DNA from: Onchidella celtica
Taxonomy: Eukaryota; Mollusca; Gastropoda; Systellommatophora; Onchidiidae
NCBI GenBank assembly: GCA_963931925.1
Contig: OZ007567.1
Coordinates: forward strand, 78,225,686 to 78,289,685
Direction: 5' to 3'
Length of the DNA stretch: 64,000 nt
In this document: piece after piece, positions 9,613-57,584 of the stretch
Layout of the letters: each line of letters begins with the position of its first letter
How positions within the stretch are numbered: position 1 is the first letter of the stretch
Translations under genes and position numbers: made by a program
Notes under the pieces: generated by a model
What the model was told of the DNA's origin: nothing
Databases searched by the model: none
The model's input: only the letters and a program-made list of their open reading frames with translations

Positions 9613-9912
9613 AAGTCCCTGGCCCTATTGGGGGGGGGGGGGTAGGATCAAGTACCTAGTCTTCTCGGGTAAGGACGAAAAAATTCGGAGGGCCCGTGTG
9701 CACGTTGCGCACGTTAAAGATACCTTGGCAGTTGGAAATCGTAAAGAGCAGACCGAAAGGCCGCTGCCCGGGCAAAATTGAAATTAATAGATTAAAATTT
9801 ATCCATATCATCTCCCCTCTCCCCCCCCCCCCCCCCGCCAGAACAAGAAATAATAAAACAAGTAAAGTGAGGTGTAAATGCCAGGGGCAGCGAACCTCCT
9901 AAAATAAAGACC
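9613..9912 (+). mobile_element. tRNA-derived SINE, copy 2 (5'-truncated)
   Basis: Contains the family body from GTAGGATCAAGTACCTAGTC through GCACGTTAAAGATACC and GCCCGGGCAAAATTG to the tail GCGAACCTCCTAAAATAAAG. The tRNA-like head with the A and B boxes is missing, and a G run lies at the truncation point. Confidence 0.8.
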
Positions 9913-26874: not shown

Positions 26875-27263
26875 GTTGTTTTAGTTTTTTATTTTAGGAG
26901 GTTCGCTGCTCTTGCTTGGCATTTACACCTCGCTTTCTTCGTTTTTTAGTTTTCTTGTTCTTGTCTCGGTGTGCTTTTGAGGTAGGGATTAGTTTTTTAG
27001 AATTTCGTCCGGGCAGCGGCCTTGTTTGGCTTGCTCTTCTCGACTTTCAACTGTATCGTTAACGTGCGCAACGTGCACACGGGCCCTCTGAATTTTTCGT
27101 CCTTACTGGAGAAGAATGGGTGCTCCATCTTACCAATCATAGGATTAAGGACAGGACTCTTTCCCCCATAAAAATGCTAACATGCCTGCATCGACCGGGG
27201 ATCGAACCCAATACCTTCGGCAATAGAGGCGAGCACTTTGCCTCTAGACCAACGTGTTCCCTA
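26875..27263 (-). mobile_element. tRNA-derived SINE, copy 3, with 13-bp target duplication
   Basis: A complete copy on the - strand. The A box TGGTCTAGAGG is followed by a B-box region, GGGTTCGATCCCCGGTCGATG. The conserved body and a tail ending near CTAAAATAAAAAAC complete it. Flanking 13-mers CCCAAATTGAGCT (26862) and CCCAAATCGAGCT (27264) differ at one base and are the target duplication. The host sequence is itself a repeat, whose SINE-free copy is at 23690-23735. Confidence 0.88.
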
Positions 27264-46000: not shown

Positions 46001-48584
46001 AACCTAGTGCAAAACAATCAATGGAAAGTGTAAAAACGTTTATACTATAATACAGCAGCCATTTGCATAGTAACAGAAATCTTTGACGAGATGCCGCTAA
46101 AAAATTTCAGAACTAATTATGCCTTAAGTAATTTCAGCAGTCTTGAAAGTTCTTTCGTCATTGTGTCTGCCCCCAGCCTTGCTCACAACTTCAAAACCGA
46201 AACAGAGAACCCCAAAATAATATGATTTGAAATCGCTACGGTATGCAAATCAATATTACAGTCTAAATGTACAGTAATATGCTCTTTGAGGTTGGCACTA
46301 AATATGCCTAATTATTTCAGTAATACCGTAGCTGAATACATTTTTTTCTTTCTTTTTTTTTTTTTGGTTGTTATTATTGTCCGCTAAAAAGATATAAGCA
46401 TTACATTTATCTTCACCGGAATCTTTGCCTGCGTTTTCCCCTTTTCTGACTAAAAAGTCCCAGCCGACCTTCAATCGTACTGGCCAACAGAAATACTCAT
46501 CAATGCAAAGCCCCAGGATTACCTCTTGGGCTAATCGATGCAGCGTGACACTGATGGCCCCTTTTCCGTATTCCTCCCTTTCCCCCTTCCCCATTGGATA
46601 TCTCATACCATTCTCACCCCTTCTTTCTTCAACAACAGATTATGTTCATTTTTTAAATTAATTTTCTTCAACCACGCTCTTTCAAGTAACTGGCCAAACC
46701 AGCAGCCAGGCCGCCTGAGCTCTTTCTGCCCTGTGTGTGTATGTTTGTGAGTGTGTGTGCCCGTGTTTGTGTTTGTGTTTTGAGTGTGTGTGTGTGCGTG
46801 TTTGTGTTTATGAGTATGTGAGTAAGTGTGTACATATGCTCTGGTTGTGTGTGTGTGTTTTCTGTTGAGCGCATGATTCCAGTGGCAGATCTATAACATA
46901 TTTCTGTGCGACACCCAATCACATTTCACACCTTTGTTAAACGCACTATTTCTAGTTCGCTGTTGTTTGCATGCTGTAAAAATGCCACCTGTTAACTCCC
47001 AATGAACATTTCATATGGACAGATATGACCCCGGCATCTGGCCTCCATATGGTCGAGAAATGAAACAAACAGAGTAACTATAATTTCTCCCCACAAGCGT
47101 GGGAGTTTCGCAAGGTAAATTGAGAATATGCGTCTGTTTGGAGTGCCCTAAATACCGGCTTGACAATCTACAACCGCGAGGGTGTGGATGTAATGATATT
47201 AGCCCAAAAGTGAATTATCTCAAAATATTGTAATTTGTGGTACAATTTAGCGATGTCACTTTATCATCTGAAAGCACTTTTTATTAGAGAAAGAAAGAGA
47301 AAATAATTATTATTCTTGAGTTTTTTTTCAGATTAGAGTCACTTTTGGTGAGGAAGTTCACCAAGCAAGTTAAATCTGGAGATCAAGCTGTCCCAATGAA
47401 GTACGAACAAGTTAGCGTCTCGTATTTATGTATCAAATAATCGGACAAGACACATAAAAGAGAGCTTTTCCCCTCAAAGGGTAAACAAGTAGAAGAGACA
47501 AGGTAAGCACATCGTAAACAAAACAAAACAAAAAAAAAATATGACGATAAACAGCACTTTTAAATTGTAAGTTTGGAGAACCAAATAAAAGTCGTTGTGA
47601 TATAAGAAGAAAATCCTCTTTAGGAGTATGATATATCTGAGACCCCATGACTGAGGGTATGACAATAAAAAATCAACAATAAAATCCTCTTTAAAAGTTT
47701 GGTGTCTGTGAGACCCGAGGACGTACGGGTGGGAGTTGTGAACATGCATGTGCATGTATTAAAATTTTAAAATTATGAGAGGAATACCTGGAATTTCAAG
47801 AAAAATTCCCCCAAAATAAGATAATAATAAACGTTTTTAACCGCCTCTGGGTCCACTAGACCCACGACGTACAGCGACAGTTAAGATGGTGGCTCGTCTC
47901 GTTGACAAAATTAATAGTTACATTCTTCTAGTGAGAAATTAAGATGTATCTGGTCACCATAGGTCGTGAAACAACTTCGGTTATTGCAAAACCCGCTAGG
48001 ATCACTTATCCCCTTTCCCCTATCCGCCCCGTCTTGATTTCTGTCTGGAAAACGAAACCTTTCAGGCAAATAATGTTGAAAATAAAACTGTATTTTGCCC
48101 CAGCTATGAGGTCTAGATGGTTTCGAATGAAAATGATAGCAATTTTCGTTAAATCGAAGCAGAGGAAAATTACGAGAATAAACTGCCGTAAATAATAATA
48201 AGACTGCTGTATAAATTGTCTGGGACTGTGTCTTCTGCCTCCATTTCGGGGGGACACATTATTGCAAAGTATTGATCTTTTCCTTAAGTTAATGAAATCC
48301 TTGATGTGATAGACTTGAATGCAAAATTCCAGATCCAGAAGCGTCTGTAAAGATGCAGATTAACTTTTGACAGCATGAAAAGTTTGTGGCAAGATACGGG
48401 GCTCCAGGGCAAGACGCATTTTTCATTTCATTTTCACAAAAGTCACATTGTTATTATAATTGTGAATTGATATCGGGACTGCCTGACACTGTCGTTCTGG
48501 CAGACAGAAAAATAAACATTTGAAGAGTTTAGCAAGGCGCATATATGAGACTTGCTGTCGAGTCTTAGTTCCATGTTTCGTGTT

Positions 48585-48926
48585 TAGGTCTTTATCTTAT
48601 GAGGTTCGCTGTCCTTGGCATTTACACCTCACATTTTCTTGTTTTATTTCTCTTGTTGTGATAGGGATTCGTTGTTTAGAATTTTGCCCGGGCAGCGGCC
48701 TATTCGGCCAGCTCTTTTCGATTTCCAACTGCCTAAGTATCTTTAACGTGCACAACGTGCCCACGGGCCCTCCGAGTTTTTCGTGTTTTTCCGAGAAGAC
48801 TAGGTGCTCGATCCCACCTACCATAGGATCAGGGACAGGAAAATATGAGAAAAATCTCAAAATTCCAACATGCCTACACCGAGCGGGATTCGAGCCCGGT
48901 ATATTGCCTCTAGACCACCGTGTTCC
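48585..48926 (-). mobile_element. tRNA-derived SINE, copy 4
   Basis: - strand copy with the A-box-like TGGTCTAGAGG, a B box reading GGGCTCGAATCC, the conserved CACGTTAAAGATAC segment and tail CCTCATAAGATAAAGACC. A short CATGTTTC occurs on each side (48572 and 48938) and may be the remains of the target duplication. Confidence 0.85.
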
Positions 48927-50852: not shown

Positions 50853-51216
50853 GGGGACACGTCAGTCTACAGGCAAGGTGCTCGCGTCTCATGCCGAGGG
50901 TACGTGGTTTGATTCCCGGTCGGTGCAGGCATGTTGGAATTTTGGGGGAAAAGTCCTGTCCCTGATCCTATAGTAGGTAGGATCGAGCACCTAGTCTTCG
51001 CGGATAGGGACGAACAACTCGGAGGTCCAGTGCGCGTGTTGCGCACGTTAAAGATGCCTTGGCAGCTGAAAGTCGAGAAGAGCAGGCCTTACAAGGGGCA
51101 AAATTAAATAAAAACAACAACTAATTCCTACCATAAAAACACAGACAAACAAGAACAAGAAAAATAGAGATGCAGATAGCAAGGGTAGAGATCATCCGAA
51201 AACAAAGATCCTAACA
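50853..51216 (+). mobile_element. tRNA-derived SINE, copy 5
   Basis: + strand copy with a degenerate A box (CAGTCTACAGG) and the B-box region GGTTTGATTCCCGGTCGGTG. The body runs through GCGCACGTTAAAGATGCC to a diverged tail. Confidence 0.8.
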
Positions 51217-53637: not shown

Positions 53638-53750
53638 TTACTAGAAATGTTTCATAGAGATCTCTCCTTGCGGAAGGTGTGCGCACGTGTGTGTGTGTGT
53701 GTGTGTGGGGGGGGGGTGTTCTGTCGTAATGTGCAAGTGTCATTCTGCAA

Positions 53751-54142
53751 TGTGTTTAGGTCTTTATTTTAGGAGGTTCCGCTGTCCTCGGCATTTACAC
53801 TTCAATTTTCTTGTTTTTATTTTTCTTGTTCTTGTTTCTGTGTGTTTTTGTGCTAGGGATGAGTTTTTTTTTTTTTTTAGAATTTTGCCCAGGCAGCGGC
53901 CTTGTTCGGCCTGCTCTTCTCGTCTTTAACTGCCAAGGTATCTTTAACGTGCGGAACGCGCACCCTGGAACCCCCCCCCCTCACATTTCTTCCTTATCCG
54001 AGAAGACTAGGTGTTCGATCCTACCTACCATGGATCAGAGACAGAAATTCCCCCCTCCCCCCCCCCCCCCCGAAAAAACATTCCAACATGCCTGCACTGA
54101 CCGGGGATCGAACCCGGTACCTTCGGCAAGACAGGCGAGTGC
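53751..54142 (-). mobile_element. tRNA-derived SINE, copy 6 (A box lost)
   Basis: - strand copy with an excellent B box (GGGTTCGATCCCCGG), the conserved body and a tail ending CCTAAAATAAAGACC. The 5' head stops before the A box. Flanking CATTCTGCAA (53741) and CATCCTGCAA (54143) differ at one base and mark the target duplication. Confidence 0.85.
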
Positions 54143-55774
54143 CATCCTGCAACAGGTGGACTTGAATATTTATTTTCTGTAACTACCATCTCATATATTT
54201 AGTCTACTGTAGTGGCATTCGTTTTAAATTTCAAATGTCTCAAAAGTTTCAATTCATGTTGACATGAAATGTGGAAGAAGGAAACTATGTGGGATGGTGA
54301 CCCTAACGGCCACAATAAAACACTGGAGGATTGGACAAGGCCTTATATGGGAAGCTTTGCTAAGGCCTGATCTATATACTGGAAAACACGAAGCGGCGTC
54401 AAACCCCAGATTCAGAAAAGACAGCAAACACCTTGGTGGATATTTGCGTGGCAGTCCTTCCAGAAGGGCATTAGTGCTGATTGCTACGAAATGTGGCTCC
54501 GTGGCCCGGCTGTTCTTTCCCCCCAAATTGAACCCATTGCATCTTGATGGGGTATCTGACCAGGAAGTGCTCCCATAAGCTATCACGGCGTCAGGATCTA
54601 ATGTGGGTATTTGCATTACATCGTGTCTTCAATAGCCATTTTCCAAGCTTCTCTTTTTTAAGTGCAGCCATCGCAATATGAACGTACGTTTCTGCCAATC
54701 TGCATTAAGATTCCGTAAGTGCACGGGCTTCTTTTTCGTCTTTTTCCATCTGCTTCATCCCTGATCTGGAGTCATTGTCCCGAGTCCATTTCCGCAATGA
54801 CGATGGGAATGTTCATAATGTTATGGAGTTTATGAATAATAACAGCGACGGGAAAGGGATAAACGATAACGAGCATCGAAGATACTTGCAAACGTCATAT
54901 GCATACCATGGTAACGGCAACTTACAAATATGCCAATTTTTTTTCCTGTCAACCCATGCGCTATCCAGTCTCCCATTATGTTTCTACTCTCTTGGTTCTT
55001 TTCCCATGGGTGTCTCGGTGTAATATTTAATAGTTTTTCTTTCTTTATATCATTATCCATTGTTGATATATCTGAATGAACACAACAAGCACGTTCCAAT
55101 AAGAATCTCCAGATTCCGATGGCTAAAAACTAAAAGAGCAAAATGCGTCATGTGTTTACATCTATTTGGACAAAAGGAAAACTAAAATCACAAAAGAAGA
55201 CTCAAGCCGAGATCTTGGTGATGCACGATCAGGATGAAAAGAAAGTTAGCCATGATATTTTAATCATTAAATTCCACGGGATTCAATTTCGCATGACATC
55301 TGTGTTCTTGTATATTTAACGACACACAGCAATTTTTCCGTCCGTTGTCTTGATGTTACGTAAGCTATATAATATAAAGAACGATATATCAGACCTGGAA
55401 ATCATGAAACCTAGGCCAGCGCGGTAAATAAGAATTTGGAAAGAGCCGCGGGCGCCACAAAAGATGTGTAGATCCACTTATTCTGATTTCTCTAGACTTT
55501 GGGTTGATTGAACCAAACTGTCGGTTTAGTCGCTTAACATCAAGAATTAAGATCTTTTTCCAGCTGTGCAATCGACCAATAGTTATCCCTCTCGTTATAT
55601 ACAATATGAATAATCTTCTCTGATATTACTAATAATAACGGGCAACATGTCTGACAAGTTTAGCTCCTAATATAAGCCATTGCTAGAAAGTTTCAAAGAT
55701 ACACATCCTACAGGACACTCTTCAATTGGCTTGTCCTTCTTACCTGTTGATGATGGCCACCTTTGAATACTTAC

Positions 55775-56001
55775 CATGTCTGAAATTTGAACCAGCGTGA
55801 TCCCAAATTTGATAACAACAGAATGAGATGCATTGATAACTGGTCGTGAGTATTTGTGGTAGCCTTCAAGTAATCGTTCCATTAGTAGTTGCTCATCAGG
55901 TATTGGTTTAGGACGCTGGTTCGTTTGTGAATAGCTGGGCATAATCGTGGAATTACCTAATCTGGCCGCACCAGATTCGTGAGACGACGATGCTGTACTA
56001 C
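55775..56001 (-). CDS. nAChR subunit exon B: alternative N-terminal ligand-binding segment
   Basis: The exon is 227 bp, with acceptor TTCTCCAG before it and donor GTAAGT after it. It opens with two bases completing a codon, then encodes 75 residues: a Ser/Ala-rich leader, then DEQLLMERLLEGYHKYSRPV and SVVIKFGITLVQISDM. It ends at the same residue and phase as exon A and shares about half of its visible conserved positions, including the NAS sequon. No signal peptide is encoded here, and the entry phase calls for an upstream exon ending with one base of a codon. I did not find that exon up to the window edge. It could instead belong to a second transcript or a neighbouring paralogue. Confidence 0.75.
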
Positions 56002-56057
56002 CTGGAGAAGCAAGAATAATGACAGGAAGATGTGAAAAATGTTCAGCTAAAACTTAC

Positions 56058-56264
56058 CATGTCTGAAATTTGCGTCAGTGTTATTCCGAATTTAACAGTG
56101 ACGGTGTTGGAAGCGTTGTAGACAGGCCTGGCAGCTGGGTTATAGTTATGGAGGATGTTGTTAATGAGCCGGGTCTCATCAGATTTCTCCGTGGCGCATG
56201 TCAGAAACTCCATAAAGACGCGCAGGATGATAAAACAGACACAGTATTTTCGGAGTCTATCCAT
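56058..56264 (-). CDS. nAChR subunit exon A: start codon, signal peptide and N-terminal ligand-binding segment
   Basis: The exon encodes 69 residues from an ATG. A basic start and hydrophobic core (about residues 7-23) resemble a signal peptide, followed by a short acidic stretch. The family N-terminal helix and beta-1 strand follow: RLINNILHNYNPAARPVYNA and then TVTVKFGITLTQISDM. An N-glycosylation sequon (NAS, residue 50) falls where many receptor subunits carry one. The exon ends after a whole codon at GTAAGT, in phase 0 with the 45-bp exon. It is self-sufficient as a first coding exon. Exon B, 56 bp downstream on the - strand, encodes an equivalent segment with the same last four residues. 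Confidence 0.88.
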
Positions 56265-57584
56265 TTCTGTACTGTTCTGAAGTTCCGAGTCCCAAACGCC
56301 GAAGAAGCCTGAACCTCACTATTTTATGTCCAGTTGCAAATACTTGCACAGAAATATTTGCACATCCGCATGTCTCCGATAGGTAAGATAGTTAATACTA
56401 GCATGCAAAGTCGGAAGTCATTATATGTTTCTTATTTCCATATTTACGAACATGTTCACCTCAAATTAAATTTCTGTCGCTAATGACGCACTGTGGAATT
56501 TTACATGTAGTTAGCTACCGAGCAATATGTCTTGAACGGCAACCAAAACTATTTGCGCGGTACATGAGAAGTTGTGGTATTCCATGAAGTGATTTTACCA
56601 ACTTGATTAGTATTCCTGTAAACTGAGTTGACCTGAATGAAGAATAATCCACATCAGTGAATGAACACAACAAGCACGTTCCATTAAGAATCTCCAGATT
56701 CCGATGACTAAAAACTAAAAGATGTATACACCAGCTATCGCCTGAAGGCCCAGAGATAATGTCGCTCGCAACAGAGCAAGCGTAACACAATATCTCTACA
56801 ACCCTTTCATCAAATCAGCAATAAGAAATAATATTTATGGGTTGATAAACACTTCGTCATGGTTATTAAACTTGCTCCACAGCTTTGGTTTGTTATTTAA
56901 TATTCCTCTCCATGGTCAGAATAAACAGCTTTGTGGACAAACAAAAATGTCACTCCGCGGCGAGATGGCCATTTCTATTTCTGTCTCAACGAGGATCAAT
57001 TTCCTGAGAATTGTTAAGCCTTAATTTGATCCTGACCGAATTAGAAATTAAATATTAAAAAATGTCATGCTATAAATCTGCAGGCTATTTTTTTGCCTGT
57101 ATTCTGGAGAATGATTAATGTTTTGTGTTTTTTAATGCAATCAAGCAGACCAATAAATCAGTTAGATAAAGATATGAAATTCGTCTAAGAGAAATAAAGA
57201 TATCGAATTCTTCCAAGAGGAGCCATACTTTGGATGGCCTACTGGAAAACATAAACACTGGACATTCTTAAGAAAAGGGCAGGAACTTAAGTGAATTGCT
57301 AGAGGAACAAAAACGTTACAAAGCAAGAGTAGACTGAGGTAAATTCAAGCTTGAGATCCGCATAAATGTGTAAGTTGTTACATGCGCGGTTATGTGCGAA
57401 CATGGAACAGAGACTGGGTATTTCGATAAAAGAGGTGATCTAGAGATGGGTCTATCCCAGCAGCCAGCACAAAGTGTTGTAAAATCCTTCTTTGCGGTCC
57501 ACACAAAGACAACGTGATGAGAATATGAAGAATGGAACAACATGATTTATTAAATACGACTAATGTAGCTTATAAAAAAAAAGA
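56265..57584. other. Region upstream of receptor exon A
   Basis: Should contain the receptor promoter and 5' untranslated region on the - strand. I see no convincing TATA box. A segment at 56657-56720 is nearly identical to 55074-55135. No other gene seen. Confidence 0.4.

Follow-up and report, generated by a model that had tools for sequence, protein, structure and literature searches.

The window analysed here, a stretch of 64,000 nucleotides (C1:78225686-78289685), carries on its minus strand a nicotinic acetylcholine receptor (nAChR) gene whose product is an alpha-type subunit with an intact body, encoded by exons 3-8, and in which two related N-terminal exons, A and B, can each be read into that body. 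Judged from sequence features, it is about an even bet (a probability near 0.5) that this is one alpha-type gene with two entry points, yielding an A form and a B form. The A/B pair is real and represents an unusual form of the exon diversity known from nAChR genes, with the use of B unproven; for exon A, an alternative first coding exon is the best reading, and exon B looks like the standard exon 2 of the family.

One receptor body and two related N-terminal exons

The complete A form consists of exon A and exons 3-8, joined across gt-ag introns, and encodes 560 amino acids. Exon A (56264-56058, minus strand, as are all exons of the gene; 207 bp) holds 69 codons, running from MDRLRK to QISDM, and exits in phase 0. 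It is separated by a 56-bp gap (56057-56002), which reads GT...AG from the donor of A to the acceptor of B, from exon B (56001-55775; 227 bp), which consists of two bases and 75 codons, runs from DEQLLM to QISDM, and also exits in phase 0. Exon B thus lies between exon A and exon 3 (52527-52483; 45 bp; DEVNQVLTINVWLEQ), of which the window holds one found copy. The remainder of the body comprises exon 4 (40576-40467; 110 bp), exon 5 with the Cys-loop (39001-38804; 198 bp), exon 6 with the alpha-type vicinal cysteines YACC and M1 (35583-35383; 201 bp), exon 7 with the M2 region (33732-33596; 137 bp), and exon 8 with M3, the M3-M4 loop, M4, and the stop codon (30717-29933; 785 bp). The A-form translation contains CKIDITYFPFDDQTC and YACC, which we take to be the Cys-loop and the vicinal cysteines of alpha subunits, and it exceeds the cut-offs of two Pfam profiles by a wide margin, matching Neur_chan_LBD at 3.8e-71 and Neur_chan_memb at 6.4e-46.

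The original prediction of two related N-terminal exons with a common downstream body is borne out. From exon A through exons 3-8, the frame is open down to the stop codon; exon B likewise enters exon 3 in frame, and B together with exons 3-5 and part of exon 6 spans positions 2-216 of the 216 in the ligand-binding domain (LBD) profile. In a tblastn search of the whole window with exon A, exon B was matched at E 2.7e-12, with 23 of 41 residues identical, and the match that followed had an E of 0.48, which indicates that the homology is real and not due to chance. Taken alone, exon A matches Neur_chan_LBD above the curated cut-off of 26 bits (30.1 bits; 4.2e-7), and exon B falls just below it (24.3 bits; 2.5e-5). 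Compared with solved nAChR chains, A plus exon 3 has alpha-7 as its best match (8e-12) and B plus exon 3 has alpha-4 (7.1e-13); over the 41 residues, A shares 17 with alpha7 and 16 with alpha4, and B shares 13 and 17, such that the two exons differ little in these identities despite their unlike best matches.

Exon B might instead be part of a separate, neighbouring receptor gene, and clustered nAChR matches do occur elsewhere in the genome (e.g., C1:12.98-13.26 Mb). This is highly improbable, because the window lacks a second exon 3 (the next-best place is a 9-residue match with E 0.68), each exon after exon 3 is matched once in the window by the receptor query, and the eight loci upstream (L019-L026, searched except for 5 kb) gave no match with E of 0.5 or less to either exon or to the body. 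Three of these upstream loci (L023-L025) show by eye long retrotransposon-like open frames, the minus strand of L024 carrying one of 1565 aa, and L025 also shows a receptor-like (GPCR) set of frames. Within the window, pieces of a dispersed repeat at 50880-51170 and 53750-54140 are about 76-90% alike, and the repeat recurs, for example, near 2564-2957, 9641-9779, 26877-27233, and 48580-48842.

A probable start exon next to an exon 2 of the family kind

The two exons are not equivalent at their 5' ends. A search of the genome (1.14 Gb, 43 contigs) with exon A returned 17 places, namely A, B, and 15 others. For A, B, and 14 paralogous exons, splice acceptors ahead of the helix were scored within the open frame, using simple weights; one place (L018) was dropped for its E of 5.4 and an internal stop, and the scoring covered the places matched by the A query, leaving out those matched by the B query alone (e.g., L032 and L034). 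In exon B, the top-scoring acceptor (7.9) leaves two bases ahead of the first full codon, and so do those of 13 of the 14 paralogous exons, although in two of the genes, L005 and L010, the two-leading-base acceptor is weak (1.5). In the fourteenth exon, L006, such an acceptor comes second (4.0 vs 4.7). Exon A has no acceptor scoring above zero within its open frame, the 5' untranslated part above the in-frame stops lying outside the scoring. Its ATG is preceded by in-frame stops, and the one exon runs from the start codon through a signal-like stretch to the N-terminal helix and the first strand. Read in the phase-1 frame, exon A is riddled with stops. Exon B instead opens with a hydrophilic leader of 34 codons before the helix, including an NST sequon, and a long pre-helix leader is also found in L005 (65 codons). 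The L005 leader (exon 2 at C1:25797678-25797806) is of low complexity, rich in Asn/Thr, and longer than that of B. Exons 2 and 3 are fused in another paralogue, L013.

With a start codon and no visible acceptor in its open frame, exon A has the features expected of an alternative first exon. Classical mutually exclusive exons, produced by tandem duplication and flanked by the same constitutive exons on either side, would account for the adjacency and homology of A and B, the 3' boundary common to both, and the 15-base tail in which they do not differ. Such exons also match in their boundaries on both sides, and here the 5' boundaries are unlike, A having a start codon and no visible acceptor and B a phase-1 acceptor; this explanation is therefore very unlikely, and the comparison with paralogues given below leans the same way without rejecting A and B as sisters. 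Of the alternative exon pair as first proposed, relatedness and the common body stand, and equivalence does not, since A is a start exon and B needs an exon upstream.

The 56-bp spacing, the common QISDM ends, and the phase-0 exits are all confirmed, as is the prediction that using A and B jointly breaks the frame. Exon A exits in phase 0, whereas the first two bases of exon B complete a codon begun in an upstream exon, and A joined to B in the frame of A reaches TAG after 14 codons. The same frame clash had been put forward as a design special to the pair; no special design is needed, because the clash follows from inherited phases, and length locks are common among human exon clusters (PMC5740500). 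Similarly, 56 bp had been called short for an intron, but this length is not too short by itself: splicing of a 56-nt intron of human HNRNPH1 was reported in all tissue samples (PMC4463651). Retention of the gap was considered as well, and in the frame of A it leads to TGA after four gap codons; a search for RNA structure spanning the 56-bp gap gave no signal (z 0.32).

The same facts could be turned into a regulatory role for exon B as a poison exon, in which splicing of A to B, with its stop after 14 codons, destroys the message and thereby tunes receptor dose. Both splice sites are present for this, and an intron of 56 nt can be spliced in human (PMC4463651). A poison exon has no need of an open LBD frame or of invariant residues, yet exon B has both, which makes this role very unlikely.

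Conservation of exon B and possible origins of the pair

All 11 residues that do not vary among A and four paralogues are kept in exon B, as are 13 of the 14 that do not vary among A and the three nearest paralogues. When other exons were left out in turn, the corresponding counts were 11/12 for A, 11/13 for L006, and 11/11 each for L003, L005, and L007. The open frame and both splice sites (AG/GT) of exon B are also intact. In a simulation of neutral decay by substitutions only, the frame, AG/GT, and the 11 residues survived together in 19% of runs at 0.05 substitutions per site and in 4% at 0.10, and any neutral phase in the history of B must therefore have been short. Exon-2 branch lengths are 0.46 for B, 0.48 for L005, 0.43 for L003, and 0.28 for A, in a tree of 17 rows that leaves 12 of its 14 inner branches open; B resembles L005 and L003 in this respect and has a longer branch than A. 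The retention of invariant residues, frame, and splice sites indicates that B is in use now or was until recently, and on balance the chance that it is in use may be put at a little over one half.

The main competitor is an orphan exon B: the first exon of the gene would have been lost or silenced on the rise of A as start exon, leaving the original exon 2, namely B, as a recent relic that is now skipped. This is a serious possibility, although the less likely of the two. It agrees with the inherited exon-2 anatomy of B and with upstream scans, covering 78.5 of 83.5 kb, that gave no credible candidate for an exon 1 of B. A strict scan gave no candidate on the coding strand and one on the other strand; a laxer scan (83.5 kb less 5 kb) gave seven weak candidates on the coding strand, all outside the window, vs ten on the other strand; and the laxest scan, adjoining A, gave nine candidates (five donors) vs none on the other strand, all donors scoring at most 1.7. 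Donors inside exon A that might lend its signal peptide to B in phase 1 were also considered and rejected, the best scoring -4.4. Unlike the gene in the window, the L005 and L006 genes have exon-1 candidates, themselves unproven, about 1.6 kb upstream of exon 2 with good position and donor. Against the orphan exon stand the short neutral phase implied by the intact frame, AG/GT, and 11/11 residues, and the weakness of the scan itself: across five paralogues it returned two candidates on the coding strand vs four on the other, with zero for L003, L007, and L012, such that a missing exon 1 for B says little.

Both versions of the exon are old. A and B differ at 17, 9, and 27 sites in codon positions 1, 2, and 3, respectively, and their silent sites are saturated (pS 0.81 vs pN 0.31). 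Their distance is that between paralogous genes of the group (23/41 identical residues for B-L005 and for L003-L007, 22/41 for A-L003 and for A-L005), which argues for the age of both. The gene body shares 115/170, 114/170, 115/170, and 106/164 residues with four paralogues, and a body tree of the five genes plus alpha7 leaves the sister of the window gene undecided. Local duplicates would be expected to be sisters; a four-sequence test instead favours pairing A with L003, and B with L005. The margin is 2.45 log units (p-AU 0.23 for A and B as sisters), or 3.1 log units without the last five residues (p-AU 0.112), and in neither case are sisters rejected. A may have been captured from another paralogue (exon capture) and not have arisen by local duplication.

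The tails of the two exons point in the opposite direction. The last 15 coding bases are identical in A (56058-56072) and B (55775-55789) and are followed in both by gtaagt. The degenerate codons of QISD are the same in four of four cases, vs four of 18 for the other shared degenerate residues, and given the proteins, the chance of an identical tail is 2-3%; ISDM is absent from all other tails among the 10 examined. Shared ancestry of recent date, conversion over a short tract, or constraint from the common exon 3 would each account for the identity.

Near exon 2 of L003, L005, L007, and L012 (loci L037-L046), no second A- or B-like exon was found besides exon 2 itself; the one additional match of A in these loci (E 0.41) is without the exon-2 core. 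For the paralogue at C1:5.49 Mb, the 4.85 kb preceding the match to exon 4 gave no exon 2. A 65-bp direct repeat (55073-55137 and 56658-56722; 97% identical) flanks the A/B pair, has two copies genome-wide, and is far younger than the A/B split.

Two putative entry points and known exon diversity

The two-entry reading draws on the acceptor score of B and its family phase, on the position of the ATG of A after stops, on the one body that serves both exons, on the conserved residues and the branch length of B, and on the common 15-base tail plus gtaagt, as if both exons had been fitted to exon 3; the lack of a credible exon 1 for B in the upstream scans counts against it. To produce the A form, transcription would begin just upstream of A, which would supply both start codon and signal peptide and be spliced to exon 3, with B skipped. 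For the B form, transcription would start farther upstream, at a separate, putative signal-peptide exon spliced in phase 1 to B, after the pattern of the paralogues, and thence to exon 3, and A would be bypassed for want of a visible acceptor. Promoter choice would keep the two exons apart, backed up by the frame clash and the tightness of the 56-bp gap. The resulting subunits would have exons 3-8 in common; the differences would lie in the N-terminal helix, the first strand, and the leader of about 34 residues in B. In this scheme, we infer the two promoters, exon 1 of B, the use of B, and any effect on assembly.

The stretch encoded by A or B is the N-terminal helix and first strand of the nAChR fold, outside the binding loops, and a swap is for that reason likelier to affect assembly partners or surface level than agonist binding. 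In Drosophila alpha4, assembly was reportedly influenced by an alternative exon, according to work cited in PMC2064938. It is tempting to go further and propose that one gene yields two subunit classes through two promoters, with promoter choice setting the assembly partners, an alpha7-like helix (NYNPAARPV) in A, an alpha4-like helix (GYHKYSRPV) plus a long, glycosylatable leader in B, and A perhaps acquired by exon capture; as a whole, this extended proposal is unlikely. If both forms of the two-entry gene are made, they would constitute a natural experiment on the role of the N-terminal helix in receptor assembly, in a group in which the diversity of receptors is put down chiefly to the number of genes.

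Molluscan nAChR genes are many, and are often intronless or in tandem arrays (PMC6896357); that paper attributes their diversity to gene number, through retroposition and tandem duplication, and the string "alternative splic" is absent from its main text. The genome examined here is similar in its many receptor matches, with intronless-like open frames among them: the receptor body as query gave 146 matches, each exon piece being counted separately, and 16 of these, which are probably intronless nAChR genes, lie in open frames of at least 400 aa without a stop inside the match.

Among human clusters of mutually exclusive exons described in PMC5740500, 57 of 629 show possible steric interference and 377 of 629 have lengths not divisible by three, such that a short distance between exons and a frame shift on joint inclusion, both seen in the A/B pair, are recognised locks. 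The human clusters were validated by junction reads, whereas A and B are predicted from the sequence and have unlike 5' boundaries.

The closest parallels come from insects, where alternative exons are described for nAChR alpha6 (3a/3b and 8a/8b/8c) and alpha4 (4/4'), and are thought to have arisen by tandem exon duplication (PMC1919356, PMC2064938). The open-licence literature consulted shows no evident case in which the N-terminal helix has a start exon as its alternative next to an exon 2 of the family kind. The insect exons, which are mostly not spliced together, are homologous alternatives within one nAChR gene, as A and B would be. In silkworm alpha6, however, joint inclusion of 3a and 3b keeps the frame, whereas A plus B breaks it. 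Finally, the insect exons 3, 4, and 8 are internal, whereas the pair described here occupies the exon 2 region and has as one of its members a start exon with a signal peptide.
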